Source of the DNA: a virus
Length of the DNA stretch: 64,000 nucleotides
Reading direction: 5' to 3' (one strand)
Virus record (IMG/VR): IMGVR_UViG_3300047494_000104
Coordinates: 1-64,000 of that record
How positions within the stretch are numbered: the stretch's first letter is position 1; each line of letters starts with the position of its first letter. Of the stretch, positions 16,506 to 57,241 are shown one piece after another. The notes beneath the pieces are model-generated. The model was not told the origin of the DNA, searched no databases, and saw only the letters and a list, made by a program, of their open reading frames with translations. Position numbers and translations under genes: made by a program.

Positions 16506-16517
16506 CATTACGTAATG
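16506..16517. promoter_or_regulatory. CATTACGTAATG palindrome upstream of dnaN
   Basis: Perfect 12-bp palindrome (14 bp with flanking T/A), 21 bp before the dnaN start on the minus strand and just upstream of its Shine-Dalgarno. A further half-site (TTACGT) adjoins it. Candidate operator, one of seven copies in the window. Confidence 0.6.
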
Positions 16518-16523
16518 ATTTGG

Positions 16524-17138
16524 TTATTCTTCACCGTTCAAAATTTGCTCGGTCCTATACTCGATCGCCGCCTCGTATTCGAGATCGTGGAGACGGTCGA
16601 GCTGGCGGTAGATGCCGCGGTTGATCCGGCGCATCCACTCCTTAATGAGATCCTCGGCATCTAATTGCCAAGCCGTAGTCGCCTCACAAGTCCGGCCGTG
16701 AATTTCGCCATAAAATTCTTCTTGGACATCCACTGAGGTGCTGCATTCGTGAACGTAGCGGAAACCTCGGTCCCTTATAATTCGGAATGTCGTGCCATCG
16801 CGAATTTCATCCACGGCCATAAAACCTCGGCGCGGATATTCGTTGCGCAGTCGAGCGACGGCTTGGTCGTGCGTAATGGCGGCGTCAATCGCCAGCACGT
16901 GCTCCATCGACATTGGAAGCGGCCTCCATCCGCAAGTGAAGCTGGCGCCGTCTCCTTGGCTGCAAAAGCCGGAGAACTGGATATCGACGCCGGGGAATCC
17001 GGCACGCTCAAGTCGCTTTTCCCACTTAGCGAGAATCCCCTTAGCCCAGTCGTCGGGGATGTAGTGGTAAGCATCCTTCTCGGCAATGCGGCGCGCTTCG
17101 GCTTCGTCCATTTCGATCGCGAGGTCAGAGTGGCTCAT
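16524..17138 (-). CDS. Conserved phage protein (FSGFCSQGDGASF motif)
   Basis: A 204-aa acidic protein. The segment GVDIQFSGFCSQGDGASFTC (residues ~50-70) is a recognisable signature of an uncharacterised family frequent in phages and prophages. The C-terminus is helical and charged (LIKEWMRRINRGIYRQLDRL). Start 17138 gives ATGA overlap; an in-frame start 21 bp upstream is less likely. Confidence 0.65.
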   Translation of the reverse strand: MSHSDLAIEMDEAEARRIAEKDAYHYIPDDWAKGILAKWEKRLERAGFPGVDIQFSGFCSQGDGASFTCGWRPLPMSMEHVLAIDAAITHDQAVARLRNEYPRRGFMAVDEIRDGTTFRIIRDRGFRYVHECSTSVDVQEEFYGEIHGRTCEATTAWQLDAEDLIKEWMRRINRGIYRQLDRLHDLEYEAAIEYRTEQILNGEE

Positions 17139-17512
17139 TGTTCCCACCTCGATAGCCAATATGTGTAATTCCCGTATTCGAGATCAATGTCCTCGGTCTC
17201 ATGGTCTGGTAAAAAATTCTCGAGATCCTCCATCGCGCCGGAACCTGATTCGGCCGTGTTTCCGTCATAGACCCGGACTTCATCGGCCGTTAGCGCCTCG
17301 TATTCGCGGCGGTCCCATTCGCCGATCGAGTTGCCGGTGATGACGAGGTTGAAGAGCTGTTCTCCATCGGGAATCGCGGTCTCGATGTTATGGAAGCCGA
17401 GAAAGTTCAGGGCGGCGCGGAATTCAGCGGCGTCTCTGGGGTCTTTGGCAATCCATGCCTTCTGGATTTCGTCGGGATCGCTTTCGTAGATCGTGGTGGT
17501 GAAGCGTGTCAT
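17135..17512 (-). CDS. Hypothetical acidic protein
   Basis: A 125-aa acidic protein starting MTRFTTTIYESDPDEIQKAW and ending in a Tyr/Trp-rich stretch (YGNYTYWLSRWEQ). ATGA-coupled to the next gene. No family recognised. Confidence 0.65.
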   Translation of the reverse strand: MTRFTTTIYESDPDEIQKAWIAKDPRDAAEFRAALNFLGFHNIETAIPDGEQLFNLVITGNSIGEWDRREYEALTADEVRVYDGNTAESGSGAMEDLENFLPDHETEDIDLEYGNYTYWLSRWEQ

Positions 17513-17516
17513 AATT

Positions 17517-17924
17517 TTATTCAACAATGGGCAAGCAGAGGGCGCCGCAGTGAGGGCATTCGCCACTCGGAAAAATGTCGCCAGGCGCGATACGACTCCA
17601 AATGTCGTGAACCGGCAGAAGATCCAGATCGGGGTACTGACGGCCGCAATCTTGGCATTCGTTCGTTTTTTCCGGAAGCTTGACGCCAAAGCTCTTCTCA
17701 ATTTCCGGCGCCACTTCCTCGATCACCTCGGCGTCGTGGTGCATGGAGGCTATACGCAGGCAATTATCGAAGGATGGCATCTGCTCGCCCTGATCGCAGG
17801 CATGCATGAGGTCGGTCAGGATGTCGGTGACCAAGACGTCAAATTCGGCATGCACGTCCCCAAAGAGTCCGCGGGCATGGGCGATGATGATCTCGCCGAG
17901 TTCGGCGCGTTCTTTGTTGGTCAT
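17517..17924 (-). CDS. Zinc-ribbon phage protein
   Basis: A 135-aa protein with a helical N-terminal domain and a C-terminal zinc ribbon: CQDCGRQYPD then SRIAPGDIFPSGECPHCGAL. The PG-x3-PSGECPxCGAL signature is common in small phage accessory proteins of unknown function. ATGA overlap with the upstream gene at 17921-17924. Confidence 0.7.
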   Translation of the reverse strand: MTNKERAELGEIIIAHARGLFGDVHAEFDVLVTDILTDLMHACDQGEQMPSFDNCLRIASMHHDAEVIEEVAPEIEKSFGVKLPEKTNECQDCGRQYPDLDLLPVHDIWSRIAPGDIFPSGECPHCGALCLPIVE

Positions 17925-18352
17925 GGGATTTTGGGCTGATGTTTGGATGCAAGACGAGCGCTGTGCTTCAGGACGCGGGAAAGCATCTGGATGGCCTGAC
18001 ATTCCTTCTCAGGATCAGGGAATAGATCGACGACGGCCTGCGCTGCTTGCTCGACGGTCGGAACTCTGGCGCCATCAAAAAGGATGTTTTCGCGGCAGTC
18101 TTCTCTCCAGCTATCGACGGGCTCTTCATATCCGATTCCGCCCTTCCCGTCATCGTACCAATAGCCAAGATCCAAAATGTCGAACCCGGCCGGAAGTGAA
18201 GCGTGGGCCGGCATGTCCTTCCAGTATGCGAGATACTCCGTGAAGTTGAATCGGATCACCCTCAGACCATCGGACTTAGATAGCTCTTGGCTAACCCACC
18301 CGTCGCTGTCGGCTATAAATTCGCCGTGCGAGCTGCCGATATTGTGGTTCAC
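17921..18352 (-). CDS. Hypothetical protein
   Basis: A 143-aa protein (GTG start 18352) with Trp/Tyr/Asp-rich segments (FDILDLGYWYDDGKGGIGYE) and a helical C-terminus. GGAGA precedes the GTG. No family recognised. Confidence 0.6.
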   Translation of the reverse strand: MNHNIGSSHGEFIADSDGWVSQELSKSDGLRVIRFNFTEYLAYWKDMPAHASLPAGFDILDLGYWYDDGKGGIGYEEPVDSWREDCRENILFDGARVPTVEQAAQAVVDLFPDPEKECQAIQMLSRVLKHSARLASKHQPKIP

Positions 18353-18355
18353 GAT

Positions 18356-18460
18356 TTATTTTCTCCGGTAAAGGTTGAGAGCTTTCTGCAGCTCGGCGAT
18401 GAGACGGATATGTCCCAGGACGATGCGCTCTTCGCGGCGCTGGCGTTGGTAGGCGTTCAT
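18356..18460 (-). CDS. Possible 34-aa basic helix protein
   Basis: Starts MNAYQRQRREERIVLGHIRL; its ATG overlaps the upstream stop (ATGA) and it ends 3 bp before the next GTG. Entirely helical and positively charged. Supported mainly by operon geometry. Confidence 0.45.
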   Translation of the reverse strand: MNAYQRQRREERIVLGHIRLIAELQKALNLYRRK

Positions 18461-18654
18461 ATTTTTGTTGGGATAGTGATAATTTCCAGCTCGGTGACGA
18501 GGTCTATGGTCAACGATTCCTCTTTGCTTGGCTCATAGTTAAGATCCAGTGCCTTGACCACTTGCTTTTCGCTCGGTAAACGACAGCACCGGACGTGATA
18601 GACGCTGATTCCGAAACGGTGTTCGTGGGCTACGGAGTATAGGAGAAGTTTCAC
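18457..18654 (-). CDS. Hypothetical 65-aa protein
   Basis: GTG at 18654 overlaps the upstream stop (GTGA). Begins MKLLLYSVAHEHRFGISVYH; two strands with two adjacent Cys, then an acidic C-terminus (EESLTIDLVTELEIITI). No family recognised. Confidence 0.6.
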   Translation of the reverse strand: MKLLLYSVAHEHRFGISVYHVRCCRLPSEKQVVKALDLNYEPSKEESLTIDLVTELEIITIPTKI

Positions 18655-18716
18655 TTGCCGCCTTTCTTGCGTCCGTACAGCAGGAAGCCGATGAAGACGC
18701 CGATGATGATCCACAC
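18651..18716 (-). CDS. 21-aa transmembrane micropeptide
   Basis: ORF of 21 codons: a hydrophobic run (WIIIGVFIGFLLYG, residues 2-15) followed by RKKGGK. GGAGAGG lies 9 bp before its GTG, and its stop overlaps the next GTG. The positive-charged end would place the C-terminus inside. Either a real membrane micropeptide or a coupling ORF. Confidence 0.45.
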   Translation of the reverse strand: MWIIIGVFIGFLLYGRKKGGK

Positions 18717-18717
18717 G

Positions 18718-18924
18718 TTAGTAGTCCTCTCCGGGCAAGTCCTCGAATCCCATGCGGGTGATCTGCTGGCCGCCGGAATTGAACATGCGCTGGCAGCTTT
18801 CGCACTGCTCGTCCTTGCCGGGTTGCCAGAAGGTGATCTCGGCACCGCAAATGCAAGTGGCGACTCCGGGCTTCCAGTCGCCGAGGTCGTTGCGGTGACC
18901 GCGTTGGGTGAATTCGAGGCTCAT
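18718..18924 (-). CDS. Zinc-finger phage protein
   Basis: A 68-aa protein with CICGAEITFWQ then CESCQRMFNSGGQ, two Cys pairs forming a small zinc ribbon typical of short phage accessory proteins (C-x-C-G ... C-x2-C-x3-FN-x2-GQ). Start overlaps the upstream stop (ATGA). Function unknown. Confidence 0.65.
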   Translation of the reverse strand: MSLEFTQRGHRNDLGDWKPGVATCICGAEITFWQPGKDEQCESCQRMFNSGGQQITRMGFEDLPGEDY

Positions 18925-19145
18925 GGGTTTATTTCGATGAGATACTGGTGACACTTGGCGCCTTCGTTCTCGGTGCCATCGGCAGGAGCGACATCATAGC
19001 CGCCCTCAGTGCCGGCGTTGATATGGGCGACTTCCTTCCGGCACTCGGCCCGCGTGGCGAAGATCTCGACCATTCCAGTCTCGCTATCGCGGAGATCGTG
19101 GTAATCGGCTTGGACCTTCCATCCATGCGGGTGACGAGTGCTCAC
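18921..19145 (-). CDS. Hypothetical 74-aa protein
   Basis: GTG start at 19145 (begins MSTRHPHGWKVQADYHDLRD). Contains a strand-helix pattern (MVEIFATRAECRKEVAHINA). No family recognised. Confidence 0.55.
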   Translation of the reverse strand: MSTRHPHGWKVQADYHDLRDSETGMVEIFATRAECRKEVAHINAGTEGGYDVAPADGTENEGAKCHQYLIEINP

Positions 19146-19149
19146 GGCC

Positions 19150-19320
19150 TTAGTTCTTGATCCACTTGCCGTCGTCGCGCTGGTGCCAGCCGGGGCGATT
19201 GCTCGGCGGGCACTGCGACTTGGCGGGCGGCATGATGGGTTTGTCCAGGCCGTTCGTGGCGGGCGGTTCCGCGTGGAGGAAGCCAGCGGAAACAACGATG
19301 ATGAGGATGATTTTTTTCAT
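19150..19320 (-). CDS. Small secreted protein with signal peptide
   Basis: A 56-aa ORF with a clear signal peptide (MKKIILIIVVSAGFLHAE, cleavage likely after HA) and a Pro/Lys-rich mature part with one Cys, ending WHQRDDGKWIKN. Probably exported to the periplasm. Starts with ATG at 19320. Confidence 0.6.
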   Translation of the reverse strand: MKKIILIIVVSAGFLHAEPPATNGLDKPIMPPAKSQCPPSNRPGWHQRDDGKWIKN

Positions 19321-19354
19321 AGGTGCGGATGATAACTGATTCGACGCCGTCGGC

Positions 19355-19537
19355 CTAGTTCTTGATGTAGGCGTTCAGGCCCACGACGAGCGGCTTGCCG
19401 TCGACCTTGACGTCGTTCAGCGTCATGTTGCCGCCGGAGCTGGCGACGATGCGCGACTTGCCGGACTTGGACGCTTCGGGCGTCGCGTTGACCGGAATTT
19501 GGAGTGTGAGGATACCGTCTTTGATGGATGCTTTCAT
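19355..19537 (-). CDS. Conserved 60-aa phage protein
   Basis: Contains KSGKSRIVASSGGNMTL and the end KPLVVGLNAYIKN, a pattern I recall in short phage proteins (SGKxxVVAS...GxPVxVGLNAYI). Function unknown. GAAAGGAACAGC precedes the ATG. A 31-bp nested inverted repeat with the CATTACGTAATG core lies 15-46 bp upstream. Confidence 0.7.
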   Translation of the reverse strand: MKASIKDGILTLQIPVNATPEASKSGKSRIVASSGGNMTLNDVKVDGKPLVVGLNAYIKN

Positions 19538-19552
19538 GCTGTTCCTTTCGTA

Positions 19553-19583
19553 GCGTCACGTAAGAATCATTACGTAATGACGC
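19553..19583. promoter_or_regulatory. Nested palindrome with CATTACGTAATG core
   Basis: The 12-bp core is at 19568-19579; GCGTCA at 19553 and TGACGC at 19578-19583 form an outer inverted repeat around it. Lies between the stop of 19607-20449 and the start of 19355-19537, both leftward. Candidate operator for the downstream gene. Confidence 0.6.
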
Positions 19584-19606
19584 AGTGGTTTATGTGGTGA
19601 GAAAAC

Positions 19607-20449
19607 TCAGGCGGCCTTCGCCTTCGAGCGAATCGCGAATTCCTTTTCGACAACGATGTCGGCCAGGACCATGAAGTCCTTGGCGAGGAGAACGAAGTCG
19701 GCTTCCGCCAGCTCGGCAAAGATGTTCTGCAAGCTGTCGATGAGACCGCGGCCGTCGGCGAGAGTGACTTCCTTGCGGGGCATCTCGACGATGTTGGACA
19801 CTTCCGGTTCCTTCGCCGGGGCAGGAGTGGCAACAGGCTTCGTCTCCAGCGTGGTGACGTCCTTGCGCTCCGGCTCGGTCAGGTGGGTGATCTTCTCGCC
19901 CTTCTTGGTCACGTCCGGGGCGGGCTCTTCCTTCTTCGGGTCCGGCTTCTTCTCCGGTTCCTTGGTGGGCTCGGCGGCCTTGGGCTTCTCGGCCAGGCGC
20001 TTCGAGGTCTCGTCGGACGTTTCCTTGTGCTCGGCGATGTGTTCGATCTCGTCGAGGTTCCCGGCGGCCACCAGCGGGCCGACGTTGACGGCGCCCTTGA
20101 CCTTGATCGCGGCATTGATCTCCACGAAGGTCGCGTAGCTGAGCTTGTCGAATTGCTGTTCGGTGACGAGCTTGCGCACGACGAGATCGTCCCAGACGCG
20201 GACGGCCTGCATGGCGTTGTTGATGGTGGACGTACGGATGCCCTTCTTTCCGAGCAGACCGTGGATGGTCTGGGACTTGGTCATGGTGCCTCGGATATGC
20301 ACGATGAGCTTGGCGGATTCTTTGAACATATTGCTCACAGATACGGTTCGGTCGGCGAACAAGTTGACGGCATCGGCCTGATTCAACTTGGAGATGGCTT
20401 CCATCGACATGACGGAAGCGGCTGGCACTGCGTTGGCTTTTTTGGCCAT
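19607..20449 (-). CDS. Hypothetical protein with charged linker
   Basis: A 280-aa protein. Residues 1-130 are helical with KLIVHIRGTMTKSQTIHGLL and ISTINNAMQAVRVWDDLVV-like segments (HTH-like, unproven). A long Lys/Glu/Pro linker covers about 150-225, and a C-terminal helical domain has SLQNIFAELAEADFVLLAKD. CAAAGGAACC precedes the ATG. I do not recognise a family; the size and linker suggest a two-domain adaptor. Confidence 0.7.
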   Translation of the reverse strand: MAKKANAVPAASVMSMEAISKLNQADAVNLFADRTVSVSNMFKESAKLIVHIRGTMTKSQTIHGLLGKKGIRTSTINNAMQAVRVWDDLVVRKLVTEQQFDKLSYATFVEINAAIKVKGAVNVGPLVAAGNLDEIEHIAEHKETSDETSKRLAEKPKAAEPTKEPEKKPDPKKEEPAPDVTKKGEKITHLTEPERKDVTTLETKPVATPAPAKEPEVSNIVEMPRKEVTLADGRGLIDSLQNIFAELAEADFVLLAKDFMVLADIVVEKEFAIRSKAKAA

Positions 20450-20469
20450 ATGGTTCCTTTGGTTGGTGG

Positions 20470-20571
20470 TTACTGAAAATCGGTCGGTACTCGCGGATGT
20501 CTCAGTTCGCGGTTATTAGCCGCTTGCATGCTATCGCTTTCCCGACGGTACGAGTTGGCGTTCTGACGCAC
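20470..20571 (-). CDS. Possible 33-aa ORF
   Basis: GTG-started ORF (MRQNANSYRRESDS...) ending 20 bp before the next gene's ATG. Weak support; the surrounding 220 bp (20450-20670) otherwise hold only a 5-bp stem (CCGGG/CCCGG, 20630-20646) and no recognisable signal. Confidence 0.2.
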   Translation of the reverse strand: MRQNANSYRRESDSMQAANNRELRHPRVPTDFQ

Positions 20572-20670
20572 TCACCCGTTCGATCCGGTTGCTGTCGGGC
20601 AATCCCGGTTCGTCTGGATTCCGCCTCCACCGGGTGACAAGCCCGGAATATGTGCGTTATCCCAAAGTGG

Positions 20671-20916
20671 TTACTGGCGCCGCTTGTCCGGAAAGCCGTC
20701 TGGACGATCGGGCATCGTGACGACCGGACGGTCTTCCTTGGACTCGAAGTAATTCTGAATCTCCTGCGAGAGGGAGGTCAAGTCGGCGACTACCAAGCGA
20801 AGCGCGGCAGCTTCAGGCGTTGCGTCGAGCTTTTCGGTCGCTTCGGCTCGCGCCTCCAAAAGATCGGAACGGCGCTTGTACAGCGCGTCCCAAACGGGAT
20901 CAGTGTCTTGTTTCAT
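20671..20916 (-). CDS. Coiled-coil hypothetical protein
   Basis: An 81-aa protein starting MKQDTDPVWDALYKRRSDLL, mostly one long helix (to about residue 60), ending in a Pro/Asp/Lys-rich tail. First gene left of the terminator and repeat region 21092-21223, so probably near a promoter. A palindrome variant (20922-20933) lies 6 bp upstream. Confidence 0.6.
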   Translation of the reverse strand: MKQDTDPVWDALYKRRSDLLEARAEATEKLDATPEAAALRLVVADLTSLSQEIQNYFESKEDRPVVTMPDRPDGFPDKRRQ

Positions 20917-20921
20917 AGGAT

Positions 20922-20933
20922 CATTTCGTAATG
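20922..20933. promoter_or_regulatory. CATTTCGTAATG palindrome variant
   Basis: One-base variant of the 12-bp CATTACGTAATG palindrome, with matching AT/AT flanks on both sides, 6 bp upstream of the leftward start at 20916. Confidence 0.45.
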
Positions 20934-21091
20934 ATTGACCGAATCGGCCAGGCATCCACCACGGGCGGACACCGTCGAGTTTCAAACTCGTGCCGTAATA
21001 GGAATTACAGGAAGCTTGCAAGCGTGCTCTATTGCCACGTTTCCAATCCGCTTCCCGTTTCCATCGTGAAAGTGAAAGACTCACTTCCATA

Positions 21092-21126
21092 CTACCTAAT
21101 AGTGAGACGCAAACTTATTCAGTTTC
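21092..21126 (-). repeat. Repeat element A (GCAAACTTATTC core)
   Basis: Matches element B at 25 of 29 positions. Read on the minus strand it is GAATAAGTTTGC followed by CTATTAGGTAG. Lies just past terminator 21151-21184 and upstream of gene 20671-20916, so it may carry the promoter of that leftward segment. Confidence 0.5.
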
Positions 21127-21150
21127 CCTCTCCCCATCATCACAAAAGAA

Positions 21151-21184
21151 AAACTCTCACCCGCAGTTAAGCGAGTGAGAGTTT
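21151..21184 (-). terminator. Intrinsic terminator, leftward
   Basis: Stem AAACTCTCAC / GTGAGAGTTT (10 bp) with an inner CGC/GCG stem and a 6-nt loop. On the minus strand it is followed by TTTTTCTTTT. Lies 34 bp after the stop of gene 21218-22333. Confidence 0.85.
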
Positions 21185-21193
21185 AATCTCTCT

Positions 21194-21223
21194 TCTACCT
21201 AGTAGTGTCAGGCAAACTTATTC
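21194..21223 (-). repeat. Repeat element B
   Basis: Second copy of the GGCAAACTTATTC element. It contains the stop codon of gene 21218-22333 and lies between that gene and its terminator. Confidence 0.5.
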
Positions 21224-23263: not shown

Positions 23264-23265
23264 GA

Positions 23266-24113: not shown

Positions 24114-24125
24114 GGCAAACTTATT
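24114..24125 (-). repeat. Repeat element D (GGCAAACTTATT)
   Basis: Fourth copy of the core, containing the stop codon of ORF 24121-24261 and lying upstream of the Cys-rich cluster start at 24094. Confidence 0.4.
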
Positions 24126-24261
24126 TGACCGCCTGGACTTGGCTGAGAGTGCGCTTGGTCATTATCGCGATCGTCTCGTCCGATCGGCCGCGTTTGCGAT
24201 GATGCTTCACGTCCGCCTCGAATGTCCTGTCGGCGAAGCCGTAGCCGAAGCGTTTCTTCAT
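24121..24261 (-). CDS. Possible 46-aa basic protein
   Basis: Starts MKKRFGYGFADRTFEADVKH and ends with an HTH-like half (SDETIAIMTKRTLSQVQA). Its start codon lies inside the CATTACGTAATG palindrome 24259-24270, and no Shine-Dalgarno is seen. Fills the gap between the LmbU-like gene and the Cys-rich cluster. Confidence 0.5.
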   Translation of the reverse strand: MKKRFGYGFADRTFEADVKHHRKRGRSDETIAIMTKRTLSQVQAVK

Positions 24262-24270
24262 TACGTAATG
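24259..24270. promoter_or_regulatory. CATTACGTAATG palindrome at a start codon
   Basis: Exact copy; the ATG of ORF 24121-24261 is part of the palindrome, so a bound protein would block the translation/transcription start region. Confidence 0.55.
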
Positions 24271-24273: not shown

Positions 24274-25002
24274 TTAGAGGCCGCGCGACCGGAAGAACTT
24301 TAAGATCGGCTCGTGCCATGCCGCGTGCGCTTGGATCTCGGCCTCTGTCCATTTTTCCGATTCGACCATGAACTTGCGCACGAACTCGGCATGCTCTTGA
24401 GCGAAAAGGTTTGGCCTGGTGGTGAGTGGCGACGGCGCCTCCGTGCGCAGGCTCTTTCTCAATTCCACGCGGACCTCGCGGGTCGAAAGATTCTCGGTCA
24501 GTACCCGATGGGCCCAGAAAGGAAACTGCGCGTCCGGGACCGCCTGCAGGATCTCTCGCGCCGCGTAGACCGAAAGGTCGGGATGACGCCATCCAATCTC
24601 GACGCGCAGGCAAACGCTCTTCACGTCATGGATCACGTTGACCGAGTACCCGGTGATCTGCGCGAGCTCGGCCGCGACGCCGTTGCCGAGGCGCTTCAGG
24701 TTTCGTTTGTCGCGCGCTCGATCGTCCGGACCGACGGCGAACATGCGATCACCATAAAGGATCCAGTCACCCAGCCACCACAGCACTGCTTTCGCCATCC
24801 CCTTCAGATTTACGCCGAGCTGCTTCCATTCTTCCTTGGTCAGCTCCCGGGTGAACTCGAGCCCGGTCTTGAGAAAGCGAACGCCTTCAGGAAACGCCGG
24901 CGGGACATAAGCCTCCACCAACGGCTGGTAGGGCGTAGCTAGAGAGGCTGGGACCGCGAGCCGCGTCTCCGACGGGGGCGGTGTGGGTGTTGCTTTGGGC
25001 AT
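24274..25002 (-). CDS. LmbU-like transcriptional regulator
   Basis: A 242-aa protein. Residues ~50-75 contain LTKEEWKQLGVNLKGMAKAV followed by LWWLGDWILYGDRMF. Later HPDLSVYAAREILQAVPDAQ precedes LSTREVRVELRKSL. This is the pattern of LmbU-family regulators and related plasmid proteins (LxxxEWxxxGxxLxxxxxAxxWWxGDWxxYG). Likely DNA-binding. Its first 116 bp overlap the gene upstream in another frame. Confidence 0.6.
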   Translation of the reverse strand: MPKATPTPPPSETRLAVPASLATPYQPLVEAYVPPAFPEGVRFLKTGLEFTRELTKEEWKQLGVNLKGMAKAVLWWLGDWILYGDRMFAVGPDDRARDKRNLKRLGNGVAAELAQITGYSVNVIHDVKSVCLRVEIGWRHPDLSVYAAREILQAVPDAQFPFWAHRVLTENLSTREVRVELRKSLRTEAPSPLTTRPNLFAQEHAEFVRKFMVESEKWTEAEIQAHAAWHEPILKFFRSRGL

Positions 25003-25627
25003 AGGTATCGCTGGCCTCGGGTTTCTTGTTGTAGCGGGACCGAGGCAAATTCAGTCCTGCTTTCACCGCGTCACAAAGTTTGTGGATCCCCTGCTTGGTG
25101 ATCCCGTACCGCTTGGCGATTGTATCGAGGGAGACTCCATCCGATAGCGGGTGACCGGTGGTCTGGACGATGCAGTCCACGACGCTTTTCGGCTCCTGAT
25201 ATTTGGCGACAAAAAGCAGCGCGGTGACCAGGCCGTGCGATGCGGCGAACAACGGGCCGGAGCGCATTCGGCTGAGATTGTCGATATGGACGTCGCTCAA
25301 GCCGAACCGCGTCTGGAATTCTTTCACCCGCGTTCCGACGCTTTGCTTGGTCACCCCGTTCCAGCCTGCGATCTGGTTGAGGCTGAAACATGCATAAACC
25401 GGGTGCTTCAGGCCATAAATTGCCGCATCGATGCATAAATGCGGCCGGGCGTCCTCTTTGACGATGAGCAATCCGCGGATCAGAAACTCGAGCGCCAGGG
25501 CATCCGGGCAAGATATGGTCGTCTTTGTTTCGAGCCGTCTGTCCACTTCGTCATAATCGAAACTGTAGGAGGCGTTCTCCGTGTTCCGGCTAGGATCCCT
25601 TCCAGCAGAGTCGTGCGGGTCGGACAT
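24887..25627 (-). CDS. Double helix-turn-helix regulator
   Basis: A 246-aa protein (starts MSDPHDSAGRDPSRN) with two HTH-like segments: FSLNQIAGWNGVTKQSVGTR (about 105-125) and VSLDTIAKRYGITKQGIHKL (about 185-205). Probably a sequence-specific regulator; it is the first gene of the leftward arm, next to the divergent region. Its C-terminal 116 bp overlap the LmbU-like gene. An in-frame ATG at 25699 would lie in terminator 25689-25724, so 25627 is preferred. Confidence 0.65.
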   Translation of the reverse strand: MSDPHDSAGRDPSRNTENASYSFDYDEVDRRLETKTTISCPDALALEFLIRGLLIVKEDARPHLCIDAAIYGLKHPVYACFSLNQIAGWNGVTKQSVGTRVKEFQTRFGLSDVHIDNLSRMRSGPLFAASHGLVTALLFVAKYQEPKSVVDCIVQTTGHPLSDGVSLDTIAKRYGITKQGIHKLCDAVKAGLNLPRSRYNKKPEASDTYAQSNTHTAPVGDAARGPSLSSYALPAVGGGLCPAGVS

Positions 25628-25688
25628 TGACGGGAAGGTATCGGGAAAGAATTCTTTCGGCAAGATATTCCTCTCGAATGAAAGAAAA

Positions 25689-31848: not shown

Positions 31849-31860
31849 CATTACGTAATG
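31849..31860. promoter_or_regulatory. CATTACGTAATG palindrome upstream of 31858 gene
   Basis: Exact copy, extended to 16 bp by AT/AT flanks. It overlaps the ATG at 31858 and lies 9 bp before the alternative ATG at 31870. TTGACA is 25 bp further upstream (31818-31823). Confidence 0.55.
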
Positions 31861-32595
31861 ATCCAAACTATGAAAACCACTTCCTTCTCCGAACGTTTCG
31901 ACCAGCAGCTCATTGAGCTTTCCGCCTTCGCGGGAGCGACTATTCAGCAGGGCGCGCAAATGCTCGGTCGGCATGATTTTGATTCCGACGACAAGAAAAA
32001 GGGCTCGAAGCTCCGTACGGCGGCCGACATCGGCGCGGCGGGCGCGGTTGGCGCGGGTGCCGGGGCGGTTGGAACCTATGTTCACGGCGTTCGCAAGTCG
32101 GGCGGTAACGCATCCGGCATGGACGCCATGCGGGTTGGCGCGCGTGATATTTCCAACAAGGTCGTCGGCGCGACCAAGGCCCCGATCAAGGCCGGCGGTG
32201 CAAAGCTCGGCAAGTTCCTCGGTAAGGCCGGGCGCACCGTCGCCAAGGCCGCGAAGAATCTCAGCGCGCTCGATCGCATCACCGAATTCACCCGCGAGGT
32301 CGAGCAGATCGTCAATTTCGAGACGATCGACAACGCCACGGCCAAGAAGCCCGTCAACAAGCAGCCCGCCAAGAGTCATAAATGGGCAACGGCAGTCGGC
32401 ATGGGCACTGCCGCCGGCGTTGGCGCCGCCGCCGGTCACTACGGCACCAAGCACTCGGCCCAGATCGCCAAGGCTGGAAAGAGCGGGGTGACCATGGCGA
32501 AGGCCGGCTACAAGACCGGCAAGAGCAAGATGGCGTCCGTCGGCAAGGGCGTCATGGGCGAGATGCGCAAGGTTGCCGGCAAGTTCAAGAAATAA
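31858..32595 (+). CDS. Lys-rich glycine-zipper protein 2
   Basis: A 245-aa basic protein of the same build as its upstream neighbour: IGAAGAVGAGAGAVGTYVHG near 60 and VGMGTAAGVGAAAGHYG near 180, set in Lys/Ala-rich sequence. LSALDRITEFTREVEQIVNF lies in the middle. Start could be 31858 or 31870 (MKTTSFSERF); neither has a Shine-Dalgarno. Confidence 0.6.
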   Translation: MIQTMKTTSFSERFDQQLIELSAFAGATIQQGAQMLGRHDFDSDDKKKGSKLRTAADIGAAGAVGAGAGAVGTYVHGVRKSGGNASGMDAMRVGARDISNKVVGATKAPIKAGGAKLGKFLGKAGRTVAKAAKNLSALDRITEFTREVEQIVNFETIDNATAKKPVNKQPAKSHKWATAVGMGTAAGVGAAAGHYGTKHSAQIAKAGKSGVTMAKAGYKTGKSKMASVGKGVMGEMRKVAGKFKK

Positions 32596-39260: not shown

Positions 39261-42200
39261 GCTTGCCAGCGACTATGGCGGGGATCTTCTTTTGCCCGTC
39301 GCCACTCTCGTTTCCGGCGGAAGCAAAATCGCCGCCGGGATGCAGCTCGTGGGCGGCATCATCGTTACCAAGGTTCTCGGTCCTCTGGGGGCCGTCGCCG
39401 GCATCATGAGCGGCATCATCGTATCCCTTGTGAAATGGGAACAGACGGCTCAGCTCGTGGCACGCGCGATGGACAAGGCGGCGGCCAAGGAAGCGATGAC
39501 GAAACAGTTTGCCGAGCTCACCAAGAGCGTTGCGACCGCCAAGGCCCGGCTTCAGGATCTCTTTCAGTTCGCCGAAAAATCGCCCTTCCGCTTCGAAAGC
39601 GTGATTGAGGGCGGCAAAGCGCTGCAGCAACTCACGAAGGGCGCGCTGATTACCCAGGACAACCTCAAGCTGGTTGGAGATGTGGCAGCGGCTTCCGGGC
39701 AACAATTTGGCACGGCCGCGGAGAAGGTGGGCGCATTCTACGGCGACCTTCAGGACGGCCGACCGGTGCGCGCGTCGGCGGAAGAACTGCGCAACATGGG
39801 CGTTATCTCCCAAACGACAGTTGAGCGCGTCGTCGCCCTTCAAGCCGCTGGTGCTGGATTAAGTTCCACATGGAACATTGCGCGCGCGGACCTCGAGAAA
39901 GCTCAAGGGGCGATGCAGGGCGTTTCGCAGACGATCGAGGATCTTCAGGGGAAGAAGGAAACGACCAAGGCGGGCATCGTGGCGCCGGCAGGGCAGATCT
40001 ACAACGACGGCATGAAGCGCGGGCTCGAGGCGCAAAATCAGTTGCTCGAAAAGGCGGCGCCGGTGCTGACTCAGATCTTCCAAATTGTCGCCCGGGTATC
40101 GGTCGGGTTCGGCTACCTCCAGAGCGGCATCGTGCGGATGATCGGATCGATTCCCGGGCTCACGACGCTTCTCGGAGGTCTTTCGATCGCGTTCGCAACC
40201 TTGGCGACGTCGGCGCTGGCACTCTCTGCCCTGAAGCTGGCCGCGTTCTTTCGGGATTCCGCGCTCGGGCTCAACAGCTACGCGGCGTCCGTGCGGCGCG
40301 CCACGGCCGAAACGGAGGATCTCACCAAAGCGACCATTCTGCAAACTGAGGCCGAAAGAATCGCGGCCAACGCGGCCGGCCCGGCGATCTCGGGAACCTA
40401 CGCGGCTGAACAGGCGGAAAAAGCGGGCGCTCAGAAGGCGGTGATCAAGATGAAAACTGGCGCGCGATCCGTTGGCGGCGGCCTGTCGACCATTTTTCAG
40501 GGCGCGCAGACGGCTTTCAATGAGGCGCGGCGGCCGGCTGGATCCTTCGGTCCCGAGCTTCCGCCCAACTATGTTGCTAACGTTGCGTCCGCTGGCGCCA
40601 AAGAGGCGGTGGTGGGCACGGAAGCCGTCGCCATGGGCGCGGGCGCCAAGCTGGCCACTGGGGCGGTAAAGCTGCTCGGAGAAGGGGTGTCCTATCTCGC
40701 CAAGGGGCTCGGGATGCTTTTCACCGGAGCCGGGGCGGTGGTGAGCGTTTTTGCGGTGCTGGCCGTCGGGGCGACGATTCTCTGGAATAAGTACGAGACG
40801 GCGTCGGAAGCCATCAAAACGTTCAATGACGCGACGGCGGAATCGGTAAAGCAGCTCAAGCAACAGAGCGACAACATTCAGACGGCGACCGATCAGGCGG
40901 CGGCGTACCAAAAAGCGATCGAACTGGTAAAGACGGGCCAGGATGAACTCAACGCCGCGATGGCCGAAAAGAGCTCCGCGCCCGTCATTGGCGGATTGCT
41001 GGACTATTTCAACCAGGTCGACGGCAAGATCAAAGCAGCCAAGGACGCCATCGCCCAGGGAACAGGTCTCCAGACTCAGATCAAGGGCAAGCAGGGCCTC
41101 GCACTGTCCGACGACCAGAACAAGCAAGTGCTCGATTTCCAACTCGGGGCGCAGCAGGCGGCGCAACAGCGGGAGCTTGTCGGGGTATCTCCGGAGCGGC
41201 AGGCAGCAATTCTTCAGCAGCGCGCAGATGCGGCGGCCAAAGAGCAGGCGGCTCAAATCGATGTTCAGAAGCGGCTTGCGCAACAGCAGCTCAATCTCAC
41301 TCCAGAGCAGCAGACTGCGATGGGATCCGAGCAGACGGATCAAAAGGCCGTCGACGAGGCCAAGGCCAAAGAAGACGCGGAAAAAGCGCGTTTAGTGAAC
41401 GCGAACAAGGCGGGGCGCCGGGTCAACACTGATTCCATTCGATCTGACATCGCTAAAGCGACCGCCGATCGCGAGAAAGCCGAAGCGTCAGCGGCCCAGA
41501 ACGCATCATTACGTAATGGCGTGAACGCGGCCCAGACAGGCATCATGGCCACCTACGGCGGTGAGCAGGGCAAAATCAATGCGCAGCTCGCCCAGCCTGA
41601 TTTGACGCAGGAGAAGCGCCAAGAACTCGGGCGGCAGCTCGTTGTGACTCAAGCGCGGCTGGCAAATCCTGCCGAACAAGAGGCTCAGGCGGCATCCGCG
41701 ACCCAGCAGCTCGGTATCTCCAAGGCGCAGTCGGCCGCGGAAGCCCCCATTCTCGCCGAACAGGCCAAGGCCGTCCAGGGCGCTCCATTTACGCCGGAAG
41801 AAGAGCTCGAGTCGCAACAGAAGATCACCGATGCAAAGAAGGATCAGTTGGACCAGACGGGCAAGCTTAACGGCATGACTCAGGACCAGATTGATCAGGC
41901 CAAACAGGCGCTCGACACAGAACAGGCCGGCCGGAAACAGGCGCTCGAGTACCGCACGAAACAGGCCGAGGCAGCGAAAAAGCTCCAAGACATCGATCAA
42001 GCCGTCGCGGAGATCAACGCAGAAGCGCTCGGCACCGCCAAGGACCAGTGGGGCACTCTACAGGATCAAGTGCGAGCCATTCAGGCGCGCAAAGATCTCA
42101 CCAAAGAGGAGCAGGCCAATGCCATCCAGCTTCTCAAGATCTCGCAGGAACAGGCGGCGCTCGAAGCATACCGGAGCCAAGAGGCGACGAAACTTGCTGG

Positions 42201-51639: not shown

Positions 51640-51646
51640 CGTGATC

Positions 51647-51790: not shown

Positions 51791-51791
51791 A

Positions 51792-52444: not shown

Positions 52445-52917
52445 TCACTTGGAAGCCCATCGTCGACGGCGAGGATCTGCTCATCGGCACGTTCGATGAG
52501 CCGGTGATCGCCAGTTGGTTCGGAGGGCCCGCAGATAGCCTTGACGACGGCCAAACCGCATCTGGCGTCGACAACACCAAGATGGGCGTCCGCGGCTGCT
52601 CCCTGCCCATGTGGAAGACGGCCAACGGCCACGAGGTTCCGCACTGCGCTGACAGCCCGCTGGGCCCTATCCCGTGGAAGACGCTCATCACCGTGAACTC
52701 CATCACGCGCGGGCCGGGCGGGATCCATCTCGGCACTCAGGCCATCCTTGAACTGATCGATGTAGGGCCCGAGACCATTCCCCGAGATGGCGTCTCTTTG
52801 AATCGTCCCATCGATCTTTGCCCGCAATCGTTCATAAATCTTGGCGGAAACATTAAACAAGGCCTTTTGCCCGTCTTCTTTCGCATTCCCGGCGGCGCGC
52901 AATATCTACGAACATGA
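52441..52917 (+). CDS. DPBB/RlpA-like protein
   Basis: A 158-aa protein with IASWFGGPADSLDDGQTASG followed by VRGCSLPM and later HLGTQAILELIDVGP. The ASWFGxxDxxDDGxTASG...GCxLP pattern resembles double-psi beta-barrel (RlpA/expansin-like) proteins that bind or cut cell-wall glycan. It may be a virion-associated or lysis-accessory glycan-binding protein. ATGA overlap with the lipoprotein. Confidence 0.45.
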   Translation: MITWKPIVDGEDLLIGTFDEPVIASWFGGPADSLDDGQTASGVDNTKMGVRGCSLPMWKTANGHEVPHCADSPLGPIPWKTLITVNSITRGPGGIHLGTQAILELIDVGPETIPRDGVSLNRPIDLCPQSFINLGGNIKQGLLPVFFRIPGGAQYLRT

Positions 52918-53132
52918 CAAAGCCCGCGCACGAAGAGATCCAGGTGAGGGCCTATTTCATTTGGCTCAAACGAGGCATGCGCCCAAACAACGCCCTCTCC
53001 GACTGGCTAGACGCGGAAATGGAATGCGAATATGAGCATCATAGGATCAACGTTGCGCGTCGCTTGCCAAGCTCTTCGCGATCACAAGTGGCGCCGCCAA
53101 TAAAGATTTCCAAATGGCCGCAAGTGTCCTAG
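52914..53132 (+). CDS. DUF2934-like small protein
   Basis: A 72-aa protein: EEIQVRAYFIWLKRGMRPNN followed by DWLDAEME matches the DUF2934 pattern (EExxxxAYxxWxxxGxxxxxxxxxWxxAE). The family is common in bacteria; function unknown. ATGA-type overlap with the upstream gene; ends the rightward late block. Confidence 0.65.
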   Translation: MTKPAHEEIQVRAYFIWLKRGMRPNNALSDWLDAEMECEYEHHRINVARRLPSSSRSQVAPPIKISKWPQVS

Positions 53133-53142
53133 CTTTATCCGC

Positions 53143-54174
53143 ATGCACCAGCTCAAGTTCTTGGAGGAGCTGCGGGCGGTCAACATCACCTTGGAGAAGG
53201 ACGTCCCCTACGTCGTCGAGACGCAAATGGTGGGACCATTTGCGATGGCGGTCAGCGGCAATATCGAGACGGAGCCGATGAAGATGGGGCGCCGCTACTA
53301 CGACAACCCGAATAGCATCCTCATCATGCGCGCGGGCGGCGTCGGCGATATCCTCTTTCTCACGCCGGCATTGAAGGCGCTCCGCGAAAAATACCCGTCC
53401 GCGCATCTGGCCCTTGCGGCGAATCAAGATAATCACTGGATCCTGGAGGGGTCCGGCCTAGTCGATTCTCAAGTCGCGTTCCCCATCCGCGTGAGGGATC
53501 TCGCCCGATGGGATTGGCTCGTCCCCCTCGAGCACACGATCGAGCAGAATAACGGCGCCCATATCGTCGACATCTTTGCGACCGAACTGGGCGTGAAAGC
53601 CGATAGTCACAAAACGACTTACAAGCCATCGACGGATCTCGCCGAGTTTGATCGCGAACTGCCGAAACAGAGGAAACGCATCGCGGTCCAGTTCAAGGCG
53701 TCCACGCCGGTGCGAACCTATCCGCTGGTGTGGGCACTGAAGGATGCCTTGCTCGCCGCCGGATGGGAAGTGGTGATCTGTTGTGCGCCTGGCGGCCTGA
53801 AGATTATCACGCCGATTCCACATCTCCACAGCACCGGCATGATGAACTGGAGCTTTCGAAAATCGATGGACTTCCTGCAGACGTGCGATTTCGTCATCGG
53901 GCCGGACTCGAGCATGATCCATTTTGCGGCCGCGCTGGGCATTCCAGGCATAGGACTATACGGCTCATTCGATGCCAAGTTGAGACTGGAAGAAGCCGGA
54001 TCGATCAAAGCCATCCAATCGCGAAGGGAATGCGATCTTGCTCCCTGCTTTTATCACAGTGGAATCGGCCTCCTTCCGTCCGACGGCCCATGCGATAAAG
54101 CTCGGATGTGTACTGCGCTGGCCGCGATTTCGATCGACGAGATCATGGCGAAGATGTCGCTCATGGGTTTCTAG
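53143..54174 (+). CDS. Glycosyltransferase family 9-like (heptosyltransferase-like)
   Basis: A 343-aa protein with GVGDILFLTPALKALREKYP near 65 and FVIGPDSSMIHFAAALGIPG followed by IGLYGSFD near 265. These are the N- and C-lobe signatures of GT9 enzymes that add heptose to lipopolysaccharide. Residues 1-55 are extra. Likely modifies host surface (superinfection exclusion) or a virion glycan. No Shine-Dalgarno seen. Confidence 0.75.
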   Translation: MHQLKFLEELRAVNITLEKDVPYVVETQMVGPFAMAVSGNIETEPMKMGRRYYDNPNSILIMRAGGVGDILFLTPALKALREKYPSAHLALAANQDNHWILEGSGLVDSQVAFPIRVRDLARWDWLVPLEHTIEQNNGAHIVDIFATELGVKADSHKTTYKPSTDLAEFDRELPKQRKRIAVQFKASTPVRTYPLVWALKDALLAAGWEVVICCAPGGLKIITPIPHLHSTGMMNWSFRKSMDFLQTCDFVIGPDSSMIHFAAALGIPGIGLYGSFDAKLRLEEAGSIKAIQSRRECDLAPCFYHSGIGLLPSDGPCDKARMCTALAAISIDEIMAKMSLMGF

Positions 54175-54186
54175 AACTTTTTTACA

Positions 54187-54203
54187 GAGGAGAAATGCTC
54201 CTC
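54187..54203 (+). promoter_or_regulatory. Stem-loop occluding a Shine-Dalgarno
   Basis: GAGGAG / CTCCTC with a 5-nt AAATG loop. The GAGGAG half is the Shine-Dalgarno of a 10-codon ORF (54206-54238, MKKVLGIAWN). Looks like a leader that could gate translation. Confidence 0.35.
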
Positions 54204-54252
54204 ATATGAAGAAAGTTCTTGGCATCGCGTGGAATTAGTTTATTGGTAGCGC

Positions 54253-54441
54253 ATGGCCCAAAAGCTTCCTATGAAAAAGGTTCCGGCGAAAAAGAAGTTC
54301 ACCGGATTCATGCTCCCTCTCACATTGACCGCCAAGATTCGCGCGCTCGCCAAAGGGCGCAATCGTTCCGAAAAGAAAGCGGGCTCTCGCCTCACGACCC
54401 AGAGCGACATCGTTGTCGAAGCTCTTCGCGCCCATCTCTAA
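54253..54441 (+). CDS. Ribbon-helix-helix-like regulator
   Basis: A 62-aa basic protein. After a Lys-rich start, FTGFMLPLTLTAKIRALAKG then TQSDIVVEALRAHL fits the RHH (CopG/Arc) pattern of one strand and two helices. It opens the replication block, so may regulate it. Followed directly by the strong stem-loop 54449-54480. Confidence 0.6.
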   Translation: MAQKLPMKKVPAKKKFTGFMLPLTLTAKIRALAKGRNRSEKKAGSRLTTQSDIVVEALRAHL

Positions 54442-54448
54442 AAACAAA

Positions 54449-54480
54449 ACCCGGTCGAGCGGACAAACGCTCGACCGGGT
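54449..54480. terminator. Perfect 13-bp stem-loop after the RHH gene
   Basis: ACCCGGTCGAGCG against CGCTCGACCGGGT with a GACAAA loop. On the plus strand no U-tract follows; on the minus strand TTTTGTTTT follows. It could act as a bidirectional stop or a stable mRNA stem between genes. Confidence 0.6.
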
Positions 54481-54499
54481 AAACAAAGGACCAATCCAC

Positions 54500-54943
54500 A
54501 TGAAGAAAACCACATCCGCCAAATCCCGTCAAGAAACAGATCGTGTCAAAGAACCTTCGCTACAGGAGCAGCTCGACCAAGCCAACGAATGGCTCGAAGA
54601 GTGTCGGGTAGCCATCAACAACGAGCGCCAGAAGTTCGAGTCCGATCTCGCCACCGCCAGGCAGGAGCGCATGTTCTGGTTCTGGATGTGCTACAATTAC
54701 AAATTCCACCACACTGCGCTGAATGTCGCCGCTTCCGGCGCGACGGCGGAACTTCTCCAGAATCTCGAGACGGCCACAATGGACATGCTTATGGCCCCGT
54801 CCGAGCCCGATAGCCGACCAACGCGCTCATTCCACCAAGACCAGATTCGTCACCGCGTGATTTTTGGAGCGCCCCAGCACCCGATGGCCGTCGAGGCTTG
54901 GTACGCGGATGCGGTAGGAACGCAAATCGTGGGAAAGAAATAA
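54500..54943 (+). CDS. Hypothetical coiled-coil protein
   Basis: A 147-aa protein starting MKKTTSAKSRQETDRVKEPS, with a helix pair (LQEQLDQANEWLEECRVAIN and the stretch to MFWFWMCYN). CAAAGGACC precedes the ATG. Upstream partner of the P-loop ATPase; function unknown. Confidence 0.6.
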   Translation: MKKTTSAKSRQETDRVKEPSLQEQLDQANEWLEECRVAINNERQKFESDLATARQERMFWFWMCYNYKFHHTALNVAASGATAELLQNLETATMDMLMAPSEPDSRPTRSFHQDQIRHRVIFGAPQHPMAVEAWYADAVGTQIVGKK

Positions 54944-54944
54944 C

Positions 54945-55868
54945 GTGGACGACGTTATCCAGCTACGGCCGGTGGACCGCGCCTTGGCCAAGTTCGTAAT
55001 CGTGCTCGCCTCCCGCACCGGAGACGGCAAAACCTACTCTGCGTTGCAGCTCGCTCTCGGGCTGGCCGACGGCAATCCGGAGAAGATCGCGCTGCTCGAT
55101 GCTGAGAACCGGCGCGGTTCTCTTTACGCGAACGTCTTCGCGCCGAAGAAGTTTCTCATCGGCGACTTGGTGCCGCCCTTTTCGCCTGACCGCTACTGCC
55201 GCGCGCTGCGCCAGGTCGGTGAAAGCGGCTGCGAGGTCGCGATCGTCGATTCCTACACGCACTCGTGGAATGGCGAGGGTGGCTGTGAGGACATCGCTAA
55301 TCGTCCCAAGGCGGACGGTTCTCCGCGGAAGATCGCCGATTGGATCACGGCCAAGCGCGAGAACAAGAAGCTGGTGAACACCGTTCTTTTCATGCCGATG
55401 CACGTCATTCTGTGCGTGCGGGCTCAGGAAAAGATGGACTTCAAAGATCCTCAGCATCCGGTATCGCTTGGCGTTCAGCCCATCTGCGAAAAAAACCTCA
55501 TGTTCGAGGCCACGATCAGCTACATGCTGCACGATGGTGGCCGGCGGCGGGAGAACCTGAAGCCGAACCGCGAGTTCGATGCCATCATGGCGCCTGGAGA
55601 ATACATTTCGGCTGACCATGGCAAAGCGTTGCGCGATTGGAGCGGCGGATTCGATCCTCTCGAGCAGGCGCGGGCCGCGCTTCGACTCGGCGCCAGCCAG
55701 GGCATCGAAGGACTAAAATCCGCATGGGCCATGGTTTCGGCCGAGCGGAAAAAGCTGCTGACCGGATTCAAAGATTCGCTAAAGGAGACGGCCGAATACG
55801 CCGACAACGAATCTCGCCTCGCGTCCCTGCAACAGGAGAAAGAGCAGCAGGAAGAACCGCTCACATAA
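54945..55868 (+). CDS. P-loop ATPase, AAA_24/Sak4-like
   Basis: A 307-aa RecA-type ATPase: Walker A ASRTGDGKT (residues 22-30), then KIALLDAENRRGSLYAN and VAIVDSYTHSWNGEGG (Walker B-like), and a C-terminal basic/charged coiled coil. Phage Sak4-like proteins bind ssDNA and help annealing. This protein sits in the recombination block with an SMC-like ATPase and RecE-like nuclease, which supports such a role. GTG start. Confidence 0.65.
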   Translation: MDDVIQLRPVDRALAKFVIVLASRTGDGKTYSALQLALGLADGNPEKIALLDAENRRGSLYANVFAPKKFLIGDLVPPFSPDRYCRALRQVGESGCEVAIVDSYTHSWNGEGGCEDIANRPKADGSPRKIADWITAKRENKKLVNTVLFMPMHVILCVRAQEKMDFKDPQHPVSLGVQPICEKNLMFEATISYMLHDGGRRRENLKPNREFDAIMAPGEYISADHGKALRDWSGGFDPLEQARAALRLGASQGIEGLKSAWAMVSAERKKLLTGFKDSLKETAEYADNESRLASLQQEKEQQEEPLT

Positions 55869-55961
55869 ATGCACGTACTGGTCTGTTTAATTACGGGCTG
55901 GTTTATCGGGTTGCTCTCAAATCACCTAGAACGCCAAGTTCTTTTTAGCATCTACCTATGA
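55869..55961 (+). CDS. Possible 30-aa membrane microprotein
   Basis: Starts MHVLVCLITGWFIGLLSNHL. Begins right after the preceding stop and overlaps the next ATG (ATGA). One hydrophobic segment. Confidence 0.4.
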   Translation: MHVLVCLITGWFIGLLSNHLERQVLFSIYL

Positions 55962-57241
55962 AAATCGTTTCCCTCAAAGCCGACAACATCCTTCGAATCA
56001 AAGCTATTTTTGTGGAGGCCAACGGCAAGTCCGTCACGCTCTCCGGCAAGAATGGATCCGGAAAAACGTCCGTCATGCGGGCGATCACCATGGCGCTCGC
56101 CGGCGCCGACTCGATCGCGGAGCAGCCGATTCACGGCGACGAGGAGTTTGCTCGCGTCATCCTCGACTTGGGCGACCTGATCGTCACCCGCACGTTTGAG
56201 AAGGACGGCAACAAGACGACGCTCAAGGTCACGTCGAAGGAAGGCGCCGTCTTCCCGACGCCGCAATCCGTGCTCAACAAACTGTGCGGGAAACTCAGCT
56301 TCGACCCGCTCGAGTTCGCCCGCATGGGACAATCCGATCCGGGCAAGCAGCTCAAGACGCTGAAGTCGCTCGTCGGGCTGGACTTTTCCGAGTTGGACAT
56401 GAAGCGCCAGGGTCTCTTCGACGAGCGCACGATGGTCGGCCGAGATGTGAAGGCGGCGGAAGCCAAGGTCGCCGGCAAATCGATGATGCCTGGAATCCCC
56501 GATGAACCTGTGAGCGTTTCGGACCTGATGAAGGAACTGCAGGAAGCGGAGGCGCGCAATCGCCAAGTAGACGAGGCGGCCTCGTCATTACGTAATGACG
56601 AGGCCAGCCTTCAGGCGGATCGGCAGGCGCTTGCTGCCACAAAGGCCGAGATCGCTGCCACCGAGGCGAAGCTGGCCGAATTGAAGAGCAAGCTGGAGGC
56701 CCAAGTGACGGCCGGCAAGTCGAAGGTAGCGGCAATTCAAGCTCGGGCCGAGACGGTTGCCGGCATGAAGCGTGTGGACGTTTCACCTATTAGGCAAAAA
56801 ATCACCAACTCCGAGGCGACCAACGCCGACATTCGGGCGAATATTCAGCTCAAGGCAGATCAGGCAAATCTCGAAAAGTATATCGCGAAGTACGACTCGC
56901 TGACTGATCAGATCACGGCCATCGACGCGGACAAGCAGGCGCAACTGAAGGCGGCAAAGTTCCCGCTCAAGGGCCTCGGCTTTACCGATACCGGCGTCAC
57001 GCTCGACAACATTCCGTTCGATCAATGCTCCACCGGCGATCAGATACGGGCGTCCGCGGCGATCGGCATGGCTTTGAATCCCAAATTGCGCGTGCTGCTC
57101 ATCCGCGACGCCTCCCTGCTCGATAAGGCCGGGCTGGAGATCCTCGCGAAGATGTCGCACGAGAAAGACGTACAATTGTGGTTGGAGTCGGTTTCTGATT
57201 CCGATGAGGTCGCGGTTACCATTGAGGGAGATGGAAAATGA
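55958..57241 (+). CDS. SMC/Rad50-like ATPase
   Basis: A 427-aa ABC-type ATPase: Walker A GKNGSGKTSV (30-39), central coiled coil (about 190-330), signature STGDQIRASAAIG and Walker B-type RVLLIRDAS, then TIEGDGK at the C-terminus. Resembles Rad50/SbcC and RecF-like phage ATPases acting in DNA end processing. The upstream ATPase and the downstream PD-(D/E)XK nuclease are likely partners. A 22-bp palindrome lies inside the gene at 56581-56602. Confidence 0.75.
   Translation: MKIVSLKADNILRIKAIFVEANGKSVTLSGKNGSGKTSVMRAITMALAGADSIAEQPIHGDEEFARVILDLGDLIVTRTFEKDGNKTTLKVTSKEGAVFPTPQSVLNKLCGKLSFDPLEFARMGQSDPGKQLKTLKSLVGLDFSELDMKRQGLFDERTMVGRDVKAAEAKVAGKSMMPGIPDEPVSVSDLMKELQEAEARNRQVDEAASSLRNDEASLQADRQALAATKAEIAATEAKLAELKSKLEAQVTAGKSKVAAIQARAETVAGMKRVDVSPIRQKITNSEATNADIRANIQLKADQANLEKYIAKYDSLTDQITAIDADKQAQLKAAKFPLKGLGFTDTGVTLDNIPFDQCSTGDQIRASAAIGMALNPKLRVLLIRDASLLDKAGLEILAKMSHEKDVQLWLESVSDSDEVAVTIEGDGK
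56581..56602. repeat. 22-bp perfect palindrome with CATTACGTAATG core
   Basis: The core 56586-56597 is extended to 22 bp by CTCGT and ACGAG flanks. It lies inside the SMC-like gene (coiled-coil region), far from any start. Confidence 0.6.

Follow-up and report, generated by a model that had tools for sequence, protein, structure and literature searches.

The question raised by this locus is what a short perfect palindrome, repeated across a viral genome both at gene starts and inside genes, is for, and which protein reads it. The locus is IMG/VR virus record IMGVR_UViG_3300047494_000104 (68,342 bp), of which positions 1 to 64,000 are henceforth called the window. The original prediction for this DNA suggested an operator or genome-wide binding site for a regulator, a partition protein, or a modification enzyme, with an LmbU-like protein among the possible binders. 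Based on the sequence comparisons presented here, the palindrome is probably an operator read by LmbU-type helix-turn-helix (HTH) proteins of a single specificity class, and it is dispersed genome-wide in the window phage.

The repeats are real and functional-looking. Exact copies of CATTACGTAATG were confirmed at 16506, 19568, 24259, 31849, 41507, and 56586, and the one-base variant CATTTCGTAATG at 20922, all as predicted; an identical variant on the opposite strand was found beyond the window at 65961-65974 (TCATTACGAAATGA), bringing the record to eight sites (six exact and two variant copies). The core is better defined as TCATTACGTAATGA, which is exact at five sites. Matches with at most two mismatches numbered 8, compared to a mean of 1.0 in dinucleotide shuffles, none of which reached 8. 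Additionally, CATTACGTAATG has an expectation of 0.0008 copies under a Markov model and is, its own overlaps aside, the most over-represented 12-mer, while the reversed control pattern gave 0 matches, so that the claim of a 12-mer far above chance holds. The record has seven perfect palindromes of at least 14 bp, and this motif accounts for five of them. Five window sites lie at gene starts, in both arms of the genome and at the genes originally named, and two lie inside genes (encoding 1298 and 427 amino acids (aa)); the in-gene placement of these two stood, and the length given for one of them was corrected from 22 to 28 bp. The sites are as follows:

16506..16517: site 1, with the TCATTACGTAATGA core; it lies immediately ahead of the Shine-Dalgarno sequence of dnaN, in a 38-bp gap, and 20 bp separate it from the start codon
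19568..19579: site 2, in a gap of 69 bp and 30 bp ahead of the start of a 60-aa gene (19355-19537, minus strand)
20922..20933: site 3, with one base changed (CATTTCGTAATG) and the start of an 81-aa gene (20671-20916, minus strand) 5 bp downstream
24259..24270: site 4, overlapping the start codon of a 46-aa HTH-like open reading frame (24121-24261, minus strand), and 3 bp past the stop of the LmbU-like gene (24274-25002, minus strand)
31849..31860: site 5, within the 16-bp palindrome ATCATTACGTAATGAT, at the start of a 245-aa gene (31858-32595, plus strand)
41507..41518: site 6, inside the 1298-aa gene, reading SLRNG with the rare codons TCA and TTA
56578..56605: site 7 (the copy at 56586), the 28-bp perfect palindrome GGCCTCGTCATTACGTAATGACGAGGCC, inside the 427-aa SbcC-like ATPase gene, reading SLRND
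65961-65974: variant site TCATTACGAAATGA, outside the window, inside the gene for a 122-aa HTH protein (65788-66156)

In this phage, TTA and TCA stand at 2.3% and 6.7%, respectively.

The identity of the binder was approached through other occurrences of the motif. Scanning for RTCATTACGTAATGAY among viral contigs returned 42 matches, which by our estimate is about chance level; in three GC-rich ones (L005, L036, L040), the site lies inside an LmbU-like gene, on the codons for SLRND. A protein search independent of the motif yielded two further such genes in metagenome-assembled genomes (MAGs) of Verrucomicrobia (L134, L135). The codons TCA TTA CGT AAT GAC are identical in all five LmbU-family genes, whose proteins share 37-88% identity, and TTA and TCA, although uncommon in DNA of this type, are kept in L134 and L135, where the sole copy in MAGs of 9.4 Mb and 7.0 Mb sits in the LmbU gene. 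All five CATTACGTAATG-bearing genes encode a GTLRN or GTLKN recognition helix. Among 286 Verrucomicrobia-class genomes, TCATTACGTAATGA was present in two, with one copy inside an LmbU-family gene, and its frequency in Verrucomicrobia is about one copy per gigabase, i.e., the motif is not equally common in the host group; an equal frequency there would have spoken against the prediction. A single copy in genome G501 (L201), upstream of an unrelated gene, fits chance at this frequency (our estimate). The earlier guess of an LmbU-like binder thereby gains strong independent support from an identical palindrome embedded in genes of that family. One of the viral genes (L005:994-1956, minus strand) encodes an LmbU domain fused to an MT-A70 methyltransferase and carries the embedded CATTACGTAATG. 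Two sets of matches were discarded: three from a pattern search combining the site with a Shine-Dalgarno sequence (AT-rich, unrelated) and six on AT-rich contigs that carry homologues of the window VWA/MoxR genes, which were judged coincidental because the site falls in one conserved coding stretch of what is apparently a single phage group.

LmbU-family genes were then gathered by hidden Markov model from the Verrucomicrobia class/order as well as from Streptomyces and Pseudonocardia plasmids (n = 67). Many of them carry a palindrome of up to 26 bp, centred on the C|G of a conserved Arg codon after the HTH; its sequence differs between genes (GTCATTACGTAATGAC, TTTTCGTTTCGAAACGAAAA, TATTGATGCGCATCAATA, AATTTTGTTTCCGGAAACAAAATT, AATTGTGCATGCGCATGCACAATT, AAATTTTCCATTCGAATGGAAAATTT, AATTGTCTGCGCGCGCAGACAATT, and TTCGTTGCGCAACGAA). 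At least 8 of 11 positions pair at the Arg codon in 35 genes. Over the 67 genes, 473 positions were paired at this codon versus 328.7 ± 10.6 after synonymous resampling with each gene's own codon usage (maximum 360 in 1000 resamplings), where the genes are related and the tests therefore not independent, though the palindromes differ. Near-perfect 22-bp palindromes (10-11 of 11 pairs) were centred on the Arg codon in 19 of 21 cases, among 53,168 centres by our count. These counts demonstrate selection at the DNA level, and exclude a protein-level explanation, since synonymous codon choice produces the excess.

It could otherwise be argued that the palindrome merely encodes a conserved SLRND peptide, and that the phage repeats are unrelated to it or represent a restriction/modification motif; the in-gene copies do mostly read SLRN, and the number of viral-contig matches is near chance. 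As a full explanation, this is refuted by the synonymous resampling, and the use of rare TTA/TCA codons, the intergenic copies, and the fact that peptides as different as CFRKQN, SIRMEN, and CMRMHN are all encoded by palindromes speak against it as well. Methyltransferase targets are usually much shorter than 12-14 bp, and the modification target suggested originally found no support. Overall, we regard this explanation as scarcely credible. Hardly more probable is an RNA-level element, i.e., a hairpin or attenuator acting in leader and coding RNA. Several sites do lie in 5' leaders and the long palindromes are foldable, but the pairing excess is strong right next to the dyad centre (second pair, 46 observed versus 19.7 expected), where an RNA hairpin would have its loop, and the 12-14-bp phage copies have no loop at all. 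The excess beside the centre thus indicates a DNA dyad.

The palindrome also covaries with the recognition helix of the encoded protein beyond what the rest of the protein explains (partial Mantel r = 0.27, p = 0.0005). In L166, a gene of the DR-TL helix class, the class motif TTGTTGCGCAACAA occurs elsewhere in its own gene. Among LmbU genes lacking the palindrome at the Arg codon, long palindromes were noted in or near the gene in L145 (GTCGTGTTAACACGAC, twice), L180 (TAGTCGTATCGTTAACGATACGACTA), and L166 (GAAGGTTGTTGCGCAACAACCTTC); L145 and L180 have other palindromes upstream.

A link to function comes from Streptomyces. LmbU of S. lincolnensis has been shown experimentally to bind CGCCGGCG (PMC6510168); its HTH has been modelled on Spo0J, and negative autoregulation has been reported (PMC6510168, PMC10763038). 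Near the Streptomyces LmbU gene L254, the palindrome GTCCCGCCGGCGGGAC includes this proven core, and the related GTCCCGTCGACGGGAC, embedded at the Arg codon in L195 (Streptomyces), is found again between genes in L199 and L251, close to LmbU in both. For these two reasons, the embedded palindromes look like the operators of the LmbU family. Over the evidence as a whole, the site class can with good confidence be assigned as an LmbU-class operator. The system described here would share with the known LmbU family (NF038070) a Spo0J-like HTH and palindromic sites, including the proven core near Streptomyces genes; unlike there, where sites lie in promoters, they are found at a fixed Arg codon in the coding sequence of the regulator itself as well as dispersed over phage genomes, and in Verrucomicrobia hosts.

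The Verrucomicrobia LmbU genes examined lie in lambda-type prophages with homologues of the gpA terminase and portal of the window phage, which establishes the linkage of such genes to prophages; an HTH gene just upstream of the prophage LmbU gene matches the HTH segment of the window protein at 24887-25663, forming a conserved pair. In such prophages, the LmbU gene usually contains what would be its own cognate palindrome at the Arg codon. Genome G312 holds two prophages of about 91% identity with an embedded TTCGTTGCGCAACGAA and dispersed copies at orthologous positions, and all 14 copies in this 7.8-Mb genome are confined to four contigs. This layout is that of the window phage, and prophages in G251 likewise carry many copies of one site. 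LmbU-linked prophages with dispersed sites and palindromes of their own thus back the LmbU-like binder further. The in-gene copies of these G312 prophages are without exception read as S/L-LRN-E/K, which may be the frame best tolerated. Further elements with TTCGTTGCGCAACGAA copies lie on two more G312 contigs (C36 and C54; L221, L222); their identity is about 90% over 15 kb, and the stretch read gave no match to a terminase, portal, or LmbU. In genome G047, a 278-kb contig (C45; L228-L238) holds two lambda-type prophages that differ in their LmbU palindromes, TCATTACGTAATGA and TCGTTTCGAAACGA, each present once in the stretch read.

For the window phage itself, the genes concerned are the following:

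24274..25002, minus strand: LmbU-like DNA-binding protein, candidate binder, 242 aa (NF038070 match; start codon uncertain)
24887..25663, minus strand: HTH protein, encoded directly upstream of the LmbU-like gene
15262..16485, minus strand: gene for a dnaN-like sliding clamp, following site 1
20671..20916, minus strand: 81-aa gene
31858..32595, plus strand: gene for the 245-aa Lys-rich protein
55958..57241, plus strand: SbcC-like ATPase gene (phrog_1499), holding site 7

The LmbU-like protein matches NF038070 at E = 1e-12 over profile positions 1-45 only, and is 27-30% identical to the prophage LmbU proteins. The conserved Arg is kept and the region can be aligned (GWRHPDLSVYA); the helix residues and HH are not conserved. 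At the thresholds used, no Pfam family matched it or the L135 LmbU, and no CTP-binding ParB domain was detected. Its AlphaFold model is poor (predicted local distance difference test (pLDDT) 51).

Several observations weigh against the proposed operator reading or against this protein as its reader. The score of 48.3 bits lies below the curated NF038070 cut-off of 125 bits, hence the protein is named LmbU-like only (the L135/L138 LmbU reaches 125.5 bits). Its recognition segment is SVNVIHD versus GTLRN, and its gene has no good embedded palindrome (7/11 pairs, p = 0.41). About half of the sampled LmbU genes likewise have none at the Arg codon, and dispersal over the genome is not general, as several LmbU prophages (in G047, G194, and G216) carry a single palindrome, embedded in LmbU. 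Finally, the 122-aa HTH protein (65788-66156, L043) offers an alternative binder with a variant site in its own gene; TCATTACGAAATGA falls where its HTH is encoded, possibly making it a second DNA-binding gene with an embedded site.

The sites may accordingly be read by another protein, namely the 122-aa HTH protein, the HTH protein at 24887-25663, or a GTLRN-class LmbU from a prophage resident in the host, which would act on this phage as immunity repressor. Besides the variant site in the 122-aa gene, the helix of the window protein, which differs from that of the GTLRN class owning this palindrome, speaks for such a binder. A covarying palindrome was found in LmbU genes only, however, and a phage would not be expected to retain eight sites serving only a foreign repressor; another binder is a possibility of clearly lower standing, and binding by the window phage's own LmbU-like protein is judged slightly better than an even call.

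A centromere-like role, in which an LmbU-type protein coats the DNA of the phage or phage-plasmid so that it can be segregated or condensed, with only secondary effects on genes, was also considered. The top 13 PDB matches in Foldseek of an LmbU model (pLDDT 64) are all ParB/Spo0J/Noc, albeit with weak E-values of 0.2-2; no sequence relatives of LmbU were found in the PDB. The sites are dispersed, several of them within genes, and the lone embedded site of some prophages resembles a single parS. On the other hand, neither a ParA-type partner nor a CTP-binding domain was seen, and five of seven window sites hug gene starts, for which partition has no need. A partition or nucleoprotein site is rather unlikely.

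Under the preferred reading as an LmbU-class operator, known systems offer partial parallels. KorB and its operator OB of plasmid RK2 combine a ParB-type HTH with 16-bp palindromic operators across the replicon, both promoter-proximal and distal (PMC11790492), and in view of the (weak) structural matches to ParB/Spo0J/Noc, KorB may be the closest working analogue; LmbU-type proteins differ in having no recognisable ParB CTPase domain, and a KorA-like partner was not identified. As a phage analogue, the stoperators of Cluster A mycobacteriophages would come closest (PMC6550527), with many copies of one repressor site, often near gene starts, and a motif which diverges with the repressor (PMC6550527, PMC9283540). 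The eight copies in 68 kb found here are a parallel to this, with a putative repressor as binder. Stoperators are asymmetric and oriented relative to transcription, whereas the present site is a perfect dyad. ParB-parS and Noc with its binding site NBS may be alike in HTH (by weak Foldseek matches), and are so in the 14-16-bp dyad and in having few specificity residues in and near the recognition helix (PMC7383237). While parS and NBS are nearly fixed across bacteria, LmbU palindromes differ from gene to gene. One parS of B. subtilis lies inside spo0J. In phage lambda, ori lies inside gene O, so that the sites of a phage DNA-binding protein are located in its own gene and differ between relatives; there, several iterons form an origin, compared to a single dyad or copies dispersed at gene starts here. 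Neither an embedded operator nor a link between LmbU and prophages was found in the literature searched, and a self-operator embedded at a single fixed codon seems, as far as could be found, to be new and undescribed.

The phage encodes a gpA-type terminase, a lambda-type portal, and a major head protein, as well as DnaN, a DnaB helicase, an SbcC-like ATPase, and an exonuclease VIII-like protein. Searching IMG/VR with dnaN, with the gene for the MoxR ATPase, and with that for the window LmbU revealed no close relative, GenBank phages are remote relatives only, and 80 relatives of the 427-aa ATPase have no exact site in the stretches examined. From the LmbU-bearing prophages there, we infer a host among the Verrucomicrobia. 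Other features of the window are a pair of MoxR-type ATPase and DUF2201 (VWA) genes (9591-11925, minus strand) as in N4-like phages, here in a gpA-terminase phage; a long GSGDGSGDG repeat tract in a 121-aa protein (7658-8023, minus strand); and two DNA methyltransferase genes (395-1141, plus strand; 8540-9280, minus strand), for which no link to the palindrome was found.

The results are consistent with a self-addressing cassette, a reading we favour somewhat, in which the operator is carried in the regulator's own gene at the Arg codon and was multiplied by phages, the window phage being a user of dispersed sites; address and reader would then co-evolve within about 60 bp. The proposal of an operator or genome-wide binding site is supported, with binding itself predicted. 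As to the regulatory outcome, we infer that a dimer of the phage LmbU-like protein would bind the dyad sites, blocking or tuning transcription at the starts of the dnaN, 60-aa, 81-aa, 46-aa, and 245-aa genes and acting as a roadblock at sites inside genes. The result would be a coordinated control of the phage genome, its own locus included, comparable to KorB operators or stoperators.

If true, locating the palindrome at the Arg codon would suffice to predict the operator. A large family of regulators that has been little studied would thereby acquire a target-site code readable from the gene alone, and dozens of natural protein/site pairs would become available to study how DNA-binding specificity changes. 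It would also suggest that phages infecting Verrucomicrobia, few of which have been characterised, have a system of genome-wide control.

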